From: Thermomicrobium sp. 4228-Ro
GTDB taxonomy: Bacteria > Chloroflexota > Chloroflexia > Thermomicrobiales > Thermomicrobiaceae
NCBI RefSeq assembly: GCF_026241205.1
Contig: NZ_JAPFQM010000006.1
Location: forward strand, 310,001 to 374,000
Length of the DNA stretch: 64,000 nt
Direction of reading: 5' to 3'
Under the pieces are notes generated by a model, which worked only from the letters and a program-made list of their open reading frames with translations, did no database searches and was not told the origin of the DNA. Position numbers and translations under genes: made by a program. Shown in pieces: positions 2,717-61,107 of the stretch; position 1 is the stretch's first letter, and the number at the start of each line of letters is the position of its first letter.

Positions 2717-3597
2717 CGTGGCACCTCCTCGCCATGCTGCCCCGCAGCCAACCACTGGGCGAGCGCCTCGAGCGCGGCCAGGCGCTCGGGGTCAGCGGCT
2801 GCGCGTTCGCGCGCGAGCGGGAGCATCGCCCGAGCGAGCGCCCGATAGAGGGCAAGCTGTTCTGGGGCGGCCTGTGCGAGCGCCTGCAGGTGTCGCTCGA
2901 GCGTCGCCCGGTCGGCCCGCGCCACCGGCCCGGTGAGCGCCTGCGGCAAGCCGAGCCACTCCAGATTGTCCAACACGCCACGCAGGAGTGGCAGGAGATG
3001 GCGTACCGCGTGCGCTCGTTCGAAGCCGGCTGCTCGGGCGAGGAGCTCGGCCGCCGTCCCCACCAGCGCGACGAACCCGTTGGCGGCGATCGCCGCCGCG
3101 GCATGGTAGAGCGGTCGCTGGGCTGGGTCGAGCGCGAACGGCTCGGCACCGAGCCGTCGAGCCAACCAGGTCAGTTCGGCGGCGAGCGGTGGATCGGCAT
3201 CGATGGCGACGCCCACGCCGCGCCAGGCTGAGGGATCGGTCCGGCCGGCGAAGGTCTGAAGCGGATGGAACGCGCCCGTCTCAGCGCCGGCGCGAGCGGC
3301 CGGTTCGAGCAGCTCGCGACCGTAGGCACCAGCCAGATGGATCACTGCCTGACCGGCTCGCCAGCGAAGCTGGCTGCAGAGCGGAGCGATCGCGCTGTCC
3401 GGCACCGCCAGGACGACGAGCGCGCCGCGATCGACCGCAGCCTGCGGATCAGCGACCGCCTCGGCACGAGGCAGCTGGGCTGCCAACGCCTGTGCCCGCT
3501 CGAACCGGCGGCTCCATACAGCGGCTACGACGATCCCAGCGACTGCGAGCGCGGTACCGAGCGCAGTCGCGGCACCACCGGCCCCGAGCAGCGCCAC
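2713..3597 (-). CDS. Rossmann-fold DUF2520 protein in pantothenate operon
   Basis: NAD(P)-binding protein of the Rossmann-like/DUF2520 family, related in fold to 6-phosphogluconate and ketopantoate reductases. Seen: N-terminal dinucleotide motif LLGAGGAATALG, VLAVPDSAI, then a helical C-terminal half with AAAAIAANGFVALV. Its position directly upstream of panB and overlapping it suggests a part in pantoate formation, possibly as the missing ketopantoate reductase (inference; no panE is visible here). Start is uncertain: GTG at 3597 has AGG six bases upstream and places the nucleotide motif at the N-terminus as usual; an ATG at 3645 would add 16 serine-rich residues and overlap the sortase gene. 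Confidence 0.8.
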   Translation of the reverse strand: MALLGAGGAATALGTALAVAGIVVAAVWSRRFERAQALAAQLPRAEAVADPQAAVDRGALVVLAVPDSAIAPLCSQLRWRAGQAVIHLAGAYGRELLEPAARAGAETGAFHPLQTFAGRTDPSAWRGVGVAIDADPPLAAELTWLARRLGAEPFALDPAQRPLYHAAAAIAANGFVALVGTAAELLARAAGFERAHAVRHLLPLLRGVLDNLEWLGLPQALTGPVARADRATLERHLQALAQAAPEQLALYRALARAMLPLARERAAADPERLAALEALAQWLAAGQHGEEVPR

Positions 3598-3604
3598 CGG
3601 CTGC

Positions 3605-4417
3605 CTAATCGACCGGCTTGGCGACGACGATGATGCGGTGGTCATCGATCCCGTACGGCCAGCAGGTCACCAGCGTCACGCGCTCCTCCGGCATCGGGTC
3701 GAGGAACCGGCCGGTCGCGATCCGCTCCTCGAGCGGAACGCCGACCTCCTTCCGGTAGTGGATCTCCGTGACGCGGTACCGGAACACGCCAGCGTCACTG
3801 GTCAGGATGACCTCGTCGCCGAGCTTGACATGTTCGAGGGTCCGGAAGACTTCACCCTTCCAGTCGTTATGCCCCGTAATGACGATGTTCCCTCCCTCGC
3901 CGGGGTTGGCCGACGTGTTATGATGCCCAGCCGCGTACTCGGCAACCTCCCACTCGATCACCTGCACGCCCTCGATTTCGACGACCTTGTATCCCACCTC
4001 GACGACCGGTGCGTCGATGCCGACCGATGGAATCTGAATCCGCGTCGGCGGCGGCAGCTTCGGCTTCGGGGTTGGAGTCGGCACGGCGGTCGGCTCGACC
4101 GTCGGTTGTACCGCGGCCCCCAGACCAGGCGTGGCCGTGGGGGATGGTGCTGGAGTCGGTATCGTCGTCGGCACGGCTTGCAGTGGCGGCGGTGGGGTGG
4201 TCAGCGTCGCGACCTGGCTCGGTGGGGGTTCCGGAGTCGGCCGGGTCGCTGCCGTTCCCATCGCCGCCACCGCGAGCAGGAACAGGCCGATCAGGATCAG
4301 GATTCCACCGAGGAGGGACAGCTGGACACGCCCCGAACGATCCTGGGCTGCTGGGGCTGCACGACCGAAGCGAAACCACTGGCGCGCCTGTCTTGCACCC
4401 GCATCGTGACCAGGCAT
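3605..4417 (-). CDS. Sortase (class E/D-like) with proline-rich stalk
   Basis: Membrane-anchored cysteine transpeptidase that joins surface proteins to the envelope or to each other. Architecture: short basic N-terminus, one transmembrane helix (LSLLGGILILIGLFLLAVAA), a Pro/Thr-rich linker of about 60 residues, then the sortase barrel. Catalytic residues are visible: His in NIVITGHNDW, Cys in VTLVTCWPYG, Arg in DDHRIIVVAKPVD. First gene of the sortase-DUF2520-panB-panC cluster. Start uncertain: ATG at 4417 is used because a TATACT element lies at 4505-4510, only a few bases from the alternative GTG at 4498; that GTG would be the start only if the mRNA were nearly leaderless. Confidence 0.85.
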   Translation of the reverse strand: MPGHDAGARQARQWFRFGRAAPAAQDRSGRVQLSLLGGILILIGLFLLAVAAMGTAATRPTPEPPPSQVATLTTPPPPLQAVPTTIPTPAPSPTATPGLGAAVQPTVEPTAVPTPTPKPKLPPPTRIQIPSVGIDAPVVEVGYKVVEIEGVQVIEWEVAEYAAGHHNTSANPGEGGNIVITGHNDWKGEVFRTLEHVKLGDEVILTSDAGVFRYRVTEIHYRKEVGVPLEERIATGRFLDPMPEERVTLVTCWPYGIDDHRIIVVAKPVD

Positions 4418-51192: not shown

Positions 51193-52464
51193 ATGGCGTG
51201 GGATACGGTGTGGCAGATGCTGGTGCACGCTTTCGAAAACACCGAAGACGAGTTCGCTGATTGGTTGCTGGCCAGGGAGGCAGGCAGGCTCATCGTGCGC
51301 TTGCCGTATACCCCTGAGCGGGTGGCGAAGCTCAAGACCGTCGTCGGCCGCCGGTGGCATCCCCAGGAGAAGTCTTGGACGGTGCCCCATACCGATGAGG
51401 CTCTTGCCCACCTGTTGGCCTTCTTTGCCGGAGAGCCGGTCGCGGTCGATCCATGGCTTCGTCCTGGGCGGGTCCCGGCCCATCGGGGGCCATCGTCTGA
51501 ACCGGCGGTCCTTCAAGACGCGAAGCTCCTTGACCAGGTGCGCTAGGCCGTTCGCGCCCGACACTCTAGCCAGAGAACGGAACAAACCTATGTTGGGTGG
51601 ATCAGCCGGTTTCTCGTCTTCCACAACAACCGCCCCCGGCCGAGATAGGGGGAGATCGCTCGGTTCCTTTCCAGCCTTGCCAGCGATGGGCATGTCAGCG
51701 CCTCTACCCAGAACCAGGCCCGGAACGCGCTGTTGTTCCTCTACCGGGAGGTCTCACACCAAGAGATCGCGTACGTGCACGGGGTCGGCCGGGCGAAAAG
51801 GCCGAAGCGGCTACCGGTGCTGTCGACCCGGCAGGAGGTCCAGTCCATCCTCGGTCGACTCCAGGGACTCGACTGGCTCATGGCCATGCTGTTCTAGGGG
51901 CCGGGCTTCGCCTTATGGAATGCCTGCGCTTCAGGGTGAAGGAGATCGAGTTCTCGCAGAGCGAGATCCGGGTTCGCAGCGGGAAGGGGACCTGGACCGG
52001 GTGACCATGCTGCCCGCGGCCGTAAAGGAGCCGCTCCGGCAGCATTTGGAGCAGGTGAAACAGCAGGACGAGGCCGATCTGACGGACGGCTCCTCCGGTG
52101 TTCCCTTACCTGATGCTCTGCGCCGAAAGTACCCGAACGCAGCGAAGGACTGGGCCTGGTACTGAGTCTTCCCGGCCTCGAGGCTCTCCGTGGACCCCCG
52201 TTCCGGCACCAGATGGCCGTACCACCTTCATGAGTCGGTGTTGCAAAAGGCGGTCAAGGAGGCCTTCCGGCGAGCGGGGTTCTCAAAGCCTGCCAGCTGC
52301 CACACCTTCCGGCACTCCTTTGCGACTCACCTGCTGGAGGACGGCTATGACATTCGGACCGTCCAGGAGCTCTTGGGGACAAGGACGTGAGCACGACCAT
52401 AGTCTATACCCATGTTTTGGACAAAGGTGGGCAGGGCGTGGCGAGTCCGACCGGTCGGCTGTGA
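51193..52464 (+). pseudogene. Integron-type tyrosine recombinase (IntI-like), decayed
   Basis: Several frames together give a full site-specific recombinase: an extra N-terminal domain RLIVRLPYTPERVAKLKTVV, GRRWHPQEKSWTVPHTDEAL; the SAM-like domain RTEQTYVGWISRFLVFHNN; then GLRLMECLRFRVKEIEFSQS (catalytic Arg), LDRVTMLPAAVKEPLRQHLE (after the beta-hairpin Lys), [60 protein letters not shown] (His-x-x-Arg), TVQELLG and [21 protein letters not shown] (Tyr nucleophile). The YWVFP..DPRSG block and the ending are typical of integron integrases rather than XerC/D. Broken by a TAG near 51544 and at least three frameshifts. Confidence 0.75.
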
Positions 52465-52526
52465 CTCCTTTCCTGGCGAACGCAGAGCGTGGGCAGCGCT
52501 CCCGGGAGAGACTGCGGGCCGATATC

Positions 52527-52558
52527 TGGATATCCTGCCAGGCCCGGCAGGATATCCA
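52527..52558. promoter_or_regulatory. Strong hairpin downstream of recombinase
   Basis: TGGATATCCTGCC-AGGCCC-GGCAGGATATCCA, perfect 13-bp arms. Position fits a terminator of the recombinase gene or an operator. Confidence 0.5.
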
Positions 52559-52571
52559 GGCGATCACGGCC

Positions 52572-52600
52572 TTGACAGAAGGACCCAAGGGGTGGATACG
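52572..52600 (+). promoter_or_regulatory. Candidate cassette promoter
   Basis: Consensus TTGACA at 52572-52577 and GATACG at 52595-52600, 17 bp apart, pointing into the SnoaL gene at 52712. The -10 box is poor. Confidence 0.35.
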
Positions 52601-52664
52601 GTTGGTGTTTACGAGAGGAACCGACCCGAGCTGGAACGGGATAGACTGCACCGTCTATCCCAGA

Positions 52665-52671
52665 GTTAGGC
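52665..52671 (+). other. Core recombination site GTTAGGC before first cassette
   Basis: GTTAGGC matches the GTTRRRY core where integron integrases cut (after G). It lies between the recombinase and the first cassette-like gene, where attI or an upstream attC end is expected. A 7-bp motif alone is weak; context raises it. Confidence 0.45.
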
Positions 52672-52711
52672 CGACATGCCAGTCGATTAGGGCCAGAGAA
52701 AGGAGGACCTT

Positions 52712-53164
52712 GTGTCATCGTTAGAAGAGAACAAAGCGTTGGTACGGCGGTTCTACGAGGGGATCGACAAGGGGAACATCGACGCGATGGACGAGTTAGT
52801 CGCCGAGGACTACATCAACCACGATCCGCCTCCGTTTCCGGGCTTGGCCACTGGCCGCGCCGGTTTGAAGCAAGCATTCGAAATGTTCTGGAAGGCTACG
52901 CCGGGCCGCCACATTATCGAAGACCAGGTCGCTGAAGGCGACAAGGTCGTAACCCGGCTGAGAGCGGTGGGCAAGCATGAGGGTGAGTTGGCAGGGATCC
53001 CACCATCGGGTAATGACCTCGACGTAAAGGCGATAGCCATTCACCGGATCGAGAATGGAAAGCTCGCGGAACACTGGTCGGCAGTCGATTCCGCGGCCTT
53101 GCTGTCCCAACTGGGTGTCATCCAGCTCCCATTCGCCCCGAAGCATGGTAATGGTGCGACCTAA
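52712..53164 (+). CDS. SnoaL-like/ester cyclase family protein (cassette gene)
   Basis: 150 residues of the NTF2-like SnoaL fold: ENKALVRRFYEGIDKGNIDAMDELVAEDYINHDPP, QAFEMFWKATPGRHIIEDQVAEGDKVVTRLRAVGKHEGEL and IHRIENGKLAEHWSAVDSAALLSQLGVI. Family members are small cyclases or hydrolases of polyketides and other substrates. GTG 52712 with AAAGGAGGACCT. The TAA stop sits inside the first core of the attC-like site at 53159, as in many integron cassettes. Intact, unlike its neighbours. Confidence 0.88.
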   Translation: MSSLEENKALVRRFYEGIDKGNIDAMDELVAEDYINHDPPPFPGLATGRAGLKQAFEMFWKATPGRHIIEDQVAEGDKVVTRLRAVGKHEGELAGIPPSGNDLDVKAIAIHRIENGKLAEHWSAVDSAALLSQLGVIQLPFAPKHGNGAT

Positions 53165-53227
53165 CTCGCGGTTGGAGCCGACCGCTCGCCTGTGGCTCGC
53201 AGCGGCTCAACCGCAGTATCGTTCGGC
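53159..53227 (+). other. attC-like recombination site
   Basis: 69 bp with the attC plan: R'' core ACCTAAC (RYYYAAC) at 53159-53165; arm GCGGTTGGAGCCG, matched downstream by CGGCTCAACCGC so that a single G stays unpaired in the first arm (extrahelical base); central loop GCTCGCCTGTGGCTCGCAG; R' core GTTCGGC at 53221-53227, one base from GTTAGGC. The unpaired base and the cores at both ends distinguish it from a terminator. Cutting G/TT at 52665 and 53221 would define a 556-bp cassette holding the SnoaL gene. Confidence 0.7.
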
Positions 53228-53282
53228 CACTGGGTTATAGCTAGTCTGTCGTATGTTGCGAGTTAAGCATAATAGCAGTAAC

Positions 53283-53697
53283 ATGTCAGCGGAAGAGAAC
53301 AAAGCAGTCTTTCGGCGTGTAATTGAGGAAGGTCTCAACAAGGGTGATTTAGCCGTGCTAGACGATTGCTTTCCTCCACAGTACATCGAACACCAATTCG
53401 GTTTGCCGTCCACGTTAGAGGAATTTAAGGATTCGATCCGCTTCCTGCGCGACACCTTCGCGCCCTTCAGCCTCACCATCGAGGAGATGGTGGCGGATGG
53501 GGATAAAGTCTGGGCGCGGATGACAGGGCGTGGCACGGACAGCAAAGGGTTGATGGGACGTCCGGCGACGGGCAAATCCTCGTGATTACCGTGTTTGATG
53601 AACTGCGTTTGAAGAACGGGAAGATCGTTGAACATTGGGGGTGCCGGATCGCTTTCACCAGATGATCCAACTTGGCCTCCTCCCTCAACCAGCGTAG
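53283..53697 (+). pseudogene. Second SnoaL-like gene, two frameshifts
   Basis: About 138 residues if repaired. MSAEENKAVFRRVIEEGLNK, FPPQYIEHQFGLPSTLEEFK, MTGRGTDSKGLMGRPATGK, then after a break at AAA 53574-53576 ILVITVFDELRLKNGKIVEHWG, and after a break at GGGGG 53637-53641 VPDRFHQMIQLGLLPQPA stop. Each break is mended by one extra A or G. Paralogous to the preceding intact gene at family level but not a recent copy. Confidence 0.7.
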
Positions 53698-53751
53698 TAG
53701 CCAGCGTGGGGGCACTGCGAGTGTAAGCTAGACAAGCAAGCACGAACAACA

Positions 53752-53823
53752 GGCCGAGCAAGGGGTTGCGGCGGACGCGCTCCCTTCGGTCACGCGGTCG
53801 CTCATCGGCGCAGCTTTTCGGCC
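53752..53823 (+). other. Degenerate attC-like site
   Basis: GGCCGAGCAA (compare GGCCTAACAA) followed by GGTTGCGGCGGACGCGC, a CTTCGG turn, and GCGCAGCTTTTCGGCC (compare GCGTTAGGCC). The layout mirrors the site at 53159, but both cores are mutated, so it would not recombine well. Confidence 0.4.
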
Positions 53824-53889
53824 TCGGCGGGAGGTGGTGGGAAATATCCCCGCGCGCCGCTGAAACCCAGACCCTCAGGAGGAAACCCG

Positions 53890-54260
53890 ATGCCACAACT
53901 CTGAGGAGGGAGCTGCGACAAGGCACGGATCGGACAGGAGATCGTAAACCCCCGCATCGGGCAATGCGTGCGGTTCGTTGAAACCGCAAGCGCGTCCGCC
54001 GGTTCGCGGCTCGTTCTCGGGTGCGTGAGTCCGCCCAGTGCGGAACGAGAACCCGAGCATGTGCACCCGCTCCAGACCAATCGGTTCGCGGTGCGTCGCG
54101 GCGCACTCCCTTCCGCCTTGCTGGCCTGGAGCGCGTCGTGGCCGCCGGTGAAGAGATCAGCATCCCGCCGGGTATGCCGCACCACTTCTGGGTCGAAGGC
54201 AGCGAGCCCGCAGAGTACCGACAGGCATTCGAGCCGGCCCTGAACACGGAAACCTTATAG
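53890..54260 (+). pseudogene. Cupin-domain protein remnant
   Basis: ATG at 53890 has AGGAGG nine bases upstream, but codon 5 is TGA. The frame goes on ARIGQEIVNPRIGQCVRFVE, ETASASAGSRLVLGCVSPPS, EHVHPLQTNRFAVRRGAL and, after a one-base shift near 54110, FRLAGLERVVAAGEEISIPP, GMPHHFWVEGSEPAEYRQAF, EPALNTETL stop. HVHP...F and the later H in MPHHFW are the metal-binding cupin residues. Third decayed gene in the cassette-like series. Confidence 0.6.
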
Positions 54261-54269
54261 TTTCTCTTG

Positions 54270-54481
54270 CCTGGTTCGGCCTTCGCCAGCACCAAGCGTG
54301 GGCGTTCGTCACCCTCGTCCTGGCGGGGCTGATCGTTCTCCCCTACTGGTTTCTCGTTTTCAAGCCCTACTGGAACGCTGGCATCGCCATTCGGTTCGCT
54401 GACCTTCCGCCAGTCTTCTGGATTCCGACCCTCCTCCTGTTTCCAGGGGTCACCTTCGGTTGGCTCGGCCTACGATCCTGA
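54270..54481 (+). pseudogene. C-terminal piece of a small membrane protein
   Basis: Open frame without a start codon: SLAWFGLRQHQAWAFVTLVL, AGLIVLPYWFLVFKPYWNAG, IRFADLPPVFWIPTLLLFPG, VTFGWLGLRS stop. Two or three hydrophobic helices and clear protein-like composition. May be a separate truncated gene or the displaced end of the cupin gene. Confidence 0.45.
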
Positions 54482-55338: not shown

Positions 55339-56646
55339 ATGCAGGACAGCGCGAATCCGCAACGGACGTGGCGCCAGACTCCTTCGCTCACGCGCCGGCG
55401 ATTTCTGCGAACAGTGCTCGCGAGCAGCGTGTTGGTCGGGTCTGCTCTCCTTCCAGCGTGCGCCGGAGGGGAATCGGCAACCCCAACCAGTCGACCGGCA
55501 ACAGGGCCGACGGTGGTGAGTTCACCGCCTGCGACAGGTGAGCGGGTGCGCGTTCCGATCGTGAACCGAGAGATGACGCGCGACGAACTCATCGCTGCAA
55601 TTCGAGAGGAGGGCAGCCTGGTTGTTGCGAACTGGACCTACACGGCAAACGACAAGATCGTCGAACAATTCCAAAAGTATGTCAAAGATACGTATGGAGT
55701 CGACATCAAGCTGATTTATGAAGGGACGCAGGCTCCCAGTACGTATCTCACGAATCTCTATACGGCACTCAAAGCCAACAAACCTTCTCCTTACGACGTG
55801 ATGGCAATCGAGGAAAACTATTGGGCAGAGGCGAAACTGCAGACGCCGCCGGTCTTGGAGGAATTTCTGCCTTCTCCGCTCGTGCCGAATGCGGAGCGTG
55901 TCGACCCCATGTTCCGGCGCTTTCCGACGGCTGTTGCTTTCCAGGCATCAGCGACACCGGGCATCGTGTACAACAAGGCGAAGGTCGACTTCCTGAAGGA
56001 CTGGAAGGATCTCGCCGATTCTCGTTTGAAGGGAAATTGACGCTGCCGTTGCCGGGTGATATCACCTGCGGGGGTTCCTGCTCGGCCTGGCAGCATCGCT
56101 GGGTAAAGACTACAAGAATCCGGACCAGATGAAAGAGGTCATCGATTATACTGTCGAGAAGATCGGCCCGAATGTTCTCAAATATACTACCGATAGCGCC
56201 GAGATGCAACAGCTCCTCCGCAGTGGAGCGGCATGGGCAGTCGGTTTTGGAACTCCCTGGCGCGTCTGGAGTTCCTTTCCGGGTACCAGGATACGGTCTT
56301 CTTGATTGCGGAATCGGGACAGTATCTCGTGAATGGGTATCTGTGGATTCCCAAGAATGCTCCACATCCCGTGCTGGCCCAGATCTTCTGCGACTGGCGC
56401 TTGAGTGACAGTGCACAGTTCCCCAACGATTGGGGCATCGAAAAGGGTGCGTGGGCAGAACTGCAGGAAGGAATACTCGGACCCTCCTATGAAAAGGATA
56501 TTCCAGATTGGTTCAAGAATGAATATTACAATTATTTCCCCACACTCGAGCAGTTGAAGTCGAAGTACAAGACTGTGGATTGGGATTACTACGCCAAGCA
56601 TAGCAAGGAATGGTTCGACTATTATTCACAGCGCCTCGGTCTCTAG
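55339..56646 (+). pseudogene. Spermidine/putrescine-type ABC substrate-binding lipoprotein, three frameshifts
   Basis: About 436 residues if repaired. Twin-Arg signal TRRRFLRTVLASSVLVGSALLP with lipobox LLPACAGG, then a PotD/type II binding fold: EEGSLVVANWTYTANDKIVEQFQKY, LYTALKANKPSPYDVMAIEE, ATPGIVYNKAKVDFLKDWKDL. Frame breaks at AAA 56034-56036, GGGGG 56070-56074 and TTTT 56245-56248; one more base at each restores LTLPLPGDITCGG-FLLGLAASLGKDY, WAVGF-WNSLARLEFL and the end YYAKHSKEWFDYYSQRLGL. ATG 55339 with GGAGGAGCGG. The permeases and ATPase that follow are intact, so a sequence error is a real option. Confidence 0.8.
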
Positions 56647-61018: not shown

Positions 61019-61107
61019 GTACACCCCCACGTGCGTGGGGACGACCTCCAGGTATCCAGAGGCGTGGCACAGCCGGTTCGGTACACCCCCAGGTGCGTGG
61101 GGACAAC
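61019..61107 (+). CRISPR. Two-repeat CRISPR fragment, type I-E-like
   Basis: GTACACCCCCACGTGCGTGG-GGACGAC at 61019-61045 and GTACACCCCCAGGTGCGTGG-GGACAAC at 61081-61107, two mismatches, start-to-start 62 bp as in type I-E arrays (29-bp repeat, 33-bp spacer). The first repeat has a perfect CCCCACG-TG-CGTGGGG stem; the second has a broken stem, as expected for a terminal repeat. A third partial ACACCCCC lies near 61138. No cas gene in the window. Confidence 0.65.

Follow-up and report, generated by a model that had tools for sequence, protein, structure and literature searches.

What is the hairpin that overlaps the 3′ end of a SnoaL-like gene in Thermomicrobium sp. 4228-Ro (Chloroflexota)? It occupies positions 53159-53227 of the window, by which we mean the whole 64,000-nucleotide stretch analysed (contig NZ_JAPFQM010000006.1, positions 310,001 to 374,000). 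An original prediction, made by reading the letters, proposed that this hairpin is an attC site of an integron, and gave its position and sequence correctly. We conclude that 53159-53227 is very probably the attC of a SnoaL gene cassette, and that this cassette belongs to a degenerate chromosomal integron of reverse layout, wherein the integrase gene intI points towards the cassettes.

Structure and uniqueness of the hairpin

The two core sites that flank the hairpin stand in inverse orientation. As had been predicted, the R″ core ACCTAAC includes the TAA stop codon (53162-53164) of the SnoaL open reading frame, and the R′ core GTTCGGC is one base off consensus, yet the same core is present in genuine arrays of related loci (L096, L148, L060 and L049). 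The arms were described as pairing fully except for one extra G. The pairing and the G bulge were confirmed, but a second unpaired base had been overlooked, and the site has not one but two extrahelical bases, namely G53174 (G53175 being equivalent) and A53181. Both reside on the R″-L″ arm at places that are conserved among attC sites, here the inner positions 9 (8 being equivalent) and 15, the same as in relatives, and the bottom-strand fold exhibits single-base bulges in this arm. Extrahelical bases are defined by Bouvier et al. as single bases on the R″-L″ arm, and the bottom strand is described as carrying a conserved G in L″ and then a T 6-8 nt further (PMC2727003). A53181 agrees with this T, whereas opposite the first extrahelical base the bottom strand carries C in the window site and G in the published description. 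The central spacer measures 5 nt on the R″-L″ side and 9 nt on the L′-R′ side. When folded, the bottom strand reaches -19.2 kcal/mol (z -2.9), compared with -16.8 kcal/mol (z -2.1) for the top strand.

A structure-aware scanner that looks for inverse cores around a bulged stem found the hairpin, with a score of 11.4, to be the sole site scoring 7 or more in the window. Dinucleotide shuffling of the window, repeated 100 times (6.4 Mb), gave seven sites as good, which corresponds to an expectation of about 0.07 per window, and this chance expectation is far lower still when closeness to an intI gene is required. The same scanner returned series of sites on contigs with intact arrays. We also trained a covariance model on 18 attC sites, all of them from other genomes, leaving the window's site out. 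The L stem in the training alignment covaries strongly, with 96.9% of positions paired and changes on both sides in 8 of 11 pairs. This model assigns the hairpin 34.3 bits (E 3.4e-6 for the window and 1.6e-4 for the 3.07-Mb genome), and the next-best match in the genome reaches 17.6 bits. Sites of reverse integrons, most of them outside the training set, score 22-66 bits. The expectation that similar copies would occur was borne out by the many such sites in relatives, but within the genome itself only one further, decayed candidate was recovered. Searched against the genome as DNA, the hairpin matched only itself, and an Rfam search of the window gave no match.

A simple terminator stem had been named as the alternative explanation. 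A hairpin with a G+C-rich stem at the 3′ end of the SnoaL gene would suit an intrinsic transcription terminator, but no T tract follows the stem, and a terminator scan of 52300-54000 returned no terminator-like site. Moreover, a terminator leaves unexplained the flanking cores, the extrahelical bases, the resemblance to attC sites from other genomes and the intI pseudogene nearby, and we regard it as exceedingly improbable. Judged from its sequence, the hairpin is a genuine attC and not a terminator, and the original identification is supported by structure, by the covariance model, by cassette logic and by the neighbouring intI pseudogene.

An integrase pseudogene and two SnoaL cassettes

Approximately 700 bp upstream of the attC resides the broken remnant of an integron integrase gene. 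Four pieces on the + strand between 51526 and 52461 match TIGR02249 and jointly cover profile positions 1-315. Their scores of 112, 36, 170 and 30 bits sum to about 347 bits against a cut-off of 265, and none of them passes singly. The stops identified comprise three TAG and one TGA, and the joined pieces are mostly 52-63% identical to the intact IntI proteins compared. An N-terminal extension precedes the profile match and is 50-61% identical to the N-terminal extensions of three Elusimicrobia IntIs (L117, L126 and L130), and it matched none of the others among 120 loci. One IntI clade with an N-terminal fusion or extension, whose proteins are about 120 aa longer, has been described, and stops or frameshifts make pseudogenes of about one third of the intI genes surveyed (PMC2426708). 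Because the adjacent MFS gene can be aligned over 1242 bp without gaps, at 87% identity, to the nearest relative (genome G005), the decay of intI is, as far as can be told, unlikely to be a sequencing artefact.

Downstream of intI, an attI-like core is followed by two cassettes, each carrying a SnoaL-like gene (Table 1). The R″ of the first cassette complements the attI-like core GTTAGGC in six of seven bases, as expected if both ends of this cassette once formed one circle. Its SnoaL gene is intact. Relative to its two nearest homologues, nonsynonymous divergence (dN) is approximately 0.24-0.28 and synonymous divergence (dS) approximately 1.7-2.3 (about 0.24 and 1.7 for L211), which is compatible with purifying selection, with the caveats that dS approaches saturation and that these homologues lie outside cassettes; no attC was found near the homologues searched (L211-L215). 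The SnoaL gene of the second cassette is a frameshifted pseudogene that is 68% identical at the DNA level to a gene in genome G028, near which no attC was found either. This cassette ends in a probable second attC, whose R″, GCCGAGC, is one base from GCCGAAC, the complement of the cassette's left core GTTCGGC (6/7). The best unfiltered model matches elsewhere reach 10-13 bits, below the score of this site. The array of the window has one good attC and one weak attC.

Table 1. Features of the SnoaL cassette locus, in window coordinates
Feature	Position	Strand	Sequence	Remarks
IntI N-terminal extension	51217-51525	+	WHPQEKSWTVP motif (protein)	In frame with intI
intI pseudogene (integron integrase, TIGR02249)	51526-52464	+		In-frame stops (4 or more) and 3 frame changes; on the cassette strand
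Near-perfect 17-bp palindrome, no loop	52526-52559			60 bp past intI pseudogene; no T tract
Perfect 9-bp hairpin	52638-52661			Directly upstream of attI-like core
attI-like core	52665-52671	+	G^TTAGGC	200 bp past intI stop
Gene cassette 1	52666-53221	+	TTAGGC...G	Boundaries inferred from core positions
Ribosome-binding site of intact SnoaL gene	52699-52706		AAAGGAGG	
Intact SnoaL-like open reading frame, cassette 1	52712-53164	+		PF07366, 6.3e-35
attC site 1	53159-53227	+		Structure scan, fold, covariance model; bottom strand expected to be recombinogenic
attC site 1, R″	53159-53165		ACCTAAC	Full match to RYYYAAC
attC site 1, L″ arm	53168-53180		GCGGTTGGAGCCG	
attC site 1, L′ arm	53203-53214		CGGCTCAACCGC	
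attC site 1, R′	53221-53227		GTTCGGC	One base off GTTRRRY
Gene cassette 2	53222-53879	+	TTCGGC (left boundary)	Right end decayed
Second SnoaL-like gene, frameshifted pseudogene	53253-53697	+		PF07366, 4.9e-13 for 53253-53582
Decayed attC site 2 (probable)	53753-53879	+		17.0 bits, E 0.0056 (6 kb, unfiltered model search)

Beyond the second cassette, 54016-54480 holds what is left of two genes, one cupin-like and one for a membrane protein, whose reading frames are open in G005 (L208, 4426-5484). The integron border seems to fall in the interval 53880-54016, amid many broken genes. Further along, a gene at 55339-56646 that precedes an ABC transporter operon and resembles its substrate-binding protein is apparently split by stops or frame changes at about 56040-56230. 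At 61019-61107, two 27-nt direct repeats (GTACACCCCCACGTGCGTGGGGACGAC) stand 62 bp apart and match a long array in G005 (L208, approximately 2980-3866) that resembles clustered regularly interspaced short palindromic repeats (CRISPR); the pair is probably a CRISPR remnant.

Reverse layout and the origin of the integrase

In ordinary integrons, intI is directed away from the cassette array. The intI of the window instead lies on the cassette strand and is directed towards the attI-like core and the array, an arrangement known as reverse or inverted. Our survey of layouts covered loci with oriented attC sites and yielded 41 divergent loci versus seven good reverse loci, the latter from Elusimicrobia (L117), Acidobacteria (L120 and L153), Rokubacteria (L148 and L149), Planctomycetota (L154) and Chloroflexota (L096). 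All 23 covariance-model sites in loci of the reverse lineage share the strand of intI and lie on its 3′ side. A further candidate reverse locus, L109, was dropped since the match at its site (AATCAAC) is poor and based on a repeat; the candidate site of L064 is located within intI.

The closest template for the window is L096 (genome G425), from another family of Chloroflexota. There, an intI on the + strand is followed after 216 bp by GTTAGGT, a cassette, ACCTAAC...GTTCGGC, and a second cassette ending in GCCGAAC...GTTCGAC. The position of the attI-like core in the window parallels that of GTTAGGT, with intI-attI distances of 200 and 216 bp, respectively, and the two loci share the R″ core ACCTAAC, the R′ core GTTCGGC, the order of parts and the strand. 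L096 differs in having an intact intI and different cassette genes, with no SnoaL, and its cassette R″ cores are complementary at 7/7 positions for both cassettes, compared with 6/7 for both in the window. This correspondence bears on the proposal that the SnoaL cassette is an isolated one with no integrase of its own (CALIN-like) and that an unrelated, decayed integrase lies nearby by chance. Cassettes without intI are common, and the second attC is weak, as that proposal would have it; however, intI, attI-like core and cassette occur in the order and spacing of the intact reverse integron L096, and the IntI of the window belongs to the reverse lineage. We consider such a coincidence very improbable.

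The placement of IntI was assessed in a tree of 37 rows, which did not include Treponema IntIs. Support (97/93) was obtained for a set uniting 12 reverse-lineage IntIs with the window IntI, whose neighbours there are reverse-layout IntIs of Elusimicrobiota, Acidobacteriota, Rokuibacteriota and one other member of Chloroflexota. The reverse-layout label is clustered on the tree, and L154 (Planctomycetota), which is also reverse, branches just outside the supported set. Constraining the window IntI to join the 17 Chloroflexota IntIs outside the reverse lineage was 30 log units worse and was rejected (approximately unbiased test, p-AU 0.0098). The same result speaks to the notion of a typical divergent integron in which the intI segment was inverted locally. 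Most Chloroflexota integrons in the survey are divergent, as this notion supposes, but the window IntI groups with reverse-layout IntIs and not with those of its own phylum, and the spacing from intI to the core is near that of L096. We judge a local inversion to be very improbable.

An IntI profile search of the 20 nearest genomes of the genus and family found none over threshold. When the integron locus itself was sought in the genus and family, it was absent, and the sole match was to the second SnoaL gene, in G028. The simplest reading is horizontal transfer, in which the element probably came from a lineage of reverse integrons that spans several phyla. As a separate observation, one contig of genome G030 (C266, locus L015) carries approximately ten long attC sites (about 113-129 bp each), and its IntI shares only 47% identity with that of the window; this contig may have been mis-binned into G030.

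Several observations weigh against a reverse integron with the SnoaL attC as its surviving site. First, the 9-nt L′-R′ spacer exceeds the 5-6 nt usual in relatives and appears as an extra TAT in the model alignment, and the score of the site falls within the lower half of genuine sites. Second, the training sites of the covariance model were picked by our own scanner, which demands similar geometry. Third, the attI candidate was placed by position and core alone, not by integrase binding sites. Fourth, the second attC is weak and is called only probable because its fold alone does no better than shuffles. Finally, no empty site was found, and the contigs of the nearest relative end at both borders.

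A decayed integron and its known relatives

On the reading that we favor, a working integrase would have bound the folded bottom strand of the attC at the R and L boxes, the choice of strand being set by the extrahelical bases. Joining of this strand to the attI-like core 3′ of intI would then have brought cassettes in at that point. As integrons take up new cassettes at attI, the one closest to it, with the intact SnoaL gene, would be the later arrival. Point stops and frameshifts would later have destroyed the integrase, and the second SnoaL gene and its attC would have decayed while the first SnoaL gene was kept intact. With the integrase dead, the array would be frozen in place, unless another integrase acts in trans on an attC that may still be usable.

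A broader proposal, which we offer tentatively and consider possible but rather unlikely, is that the window holds a fossil of a reverse-integron lineage that moves between phyla as a unit. This lineage would span Chloroflexota, Rokuibacteriota, Acidobacteriota, Elusimicrobiota, Gemmatimonadota and Myxococcota, would place attI about 160-220 bp downstream of intI, and would include some members with an extra N-terminal IntI domain; the surviving attC might still be mobilised in trans.

A single hairpin spotted by eye has led to a degenerate integron with an integrase gene so damaged that gene callers cannot pick it up. The locus adds a reverse-layout integron to a family of Chloroflexota in which the sampled members hold no other integrase over threshold, and it offers a case of probable horizontal arrival followed by decay, with one cassette gene retained. 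Its intact sister loci allow tests of how attI and cassette expression work when intI faces the array.

The window element is a fossil reverse integron, a kind that is already known but uncommon. A limited check of the open literature found no reverse integron described in Chloroflexota, which is not proof of absence. Reverse chromosomal integrons have been reported in Treponema, where intI is transcribed towards attI (PMC3607928), and in its kin Kuenenia, Chlorobium phaeobacteroides and Blastopirellula marina (PMC3607928; PMC8352920), and inverted IntIs have been described as a sub-clade within the soil/freshwater clade (PMC8352920).

Comparison with these systems places the window element as follows. 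Its attC has the R″, L″, L′ and R′ order and the extrahelical bases on the R″-L″ arm (PMC2727003) that are common to resistance-cassette sites of the attC-aadA type, including an extra base right after the GTT of L″, whereas its L′-R′ spacer is longer and the remaining sequence is dissimilar. Its intI is broken by stops and frameshifts, as in the pseudo-integrons described previously (PMC2426708). The small integron of T. brennaborense, with the attI core GTTAGGT, is a precedent for the small array of the window, and the decayed state of the window element resembles that of T. phagedenis, whose integron has been reduced to remnants (PMC3607928). The window element differs from Treponema-type reverse integrons in its Chloroflexota host, in having its closest IntIs in Elusimicrobiota, Acidobacteriota and Rokuibacteriota, and in the pseudogene state of its intI.
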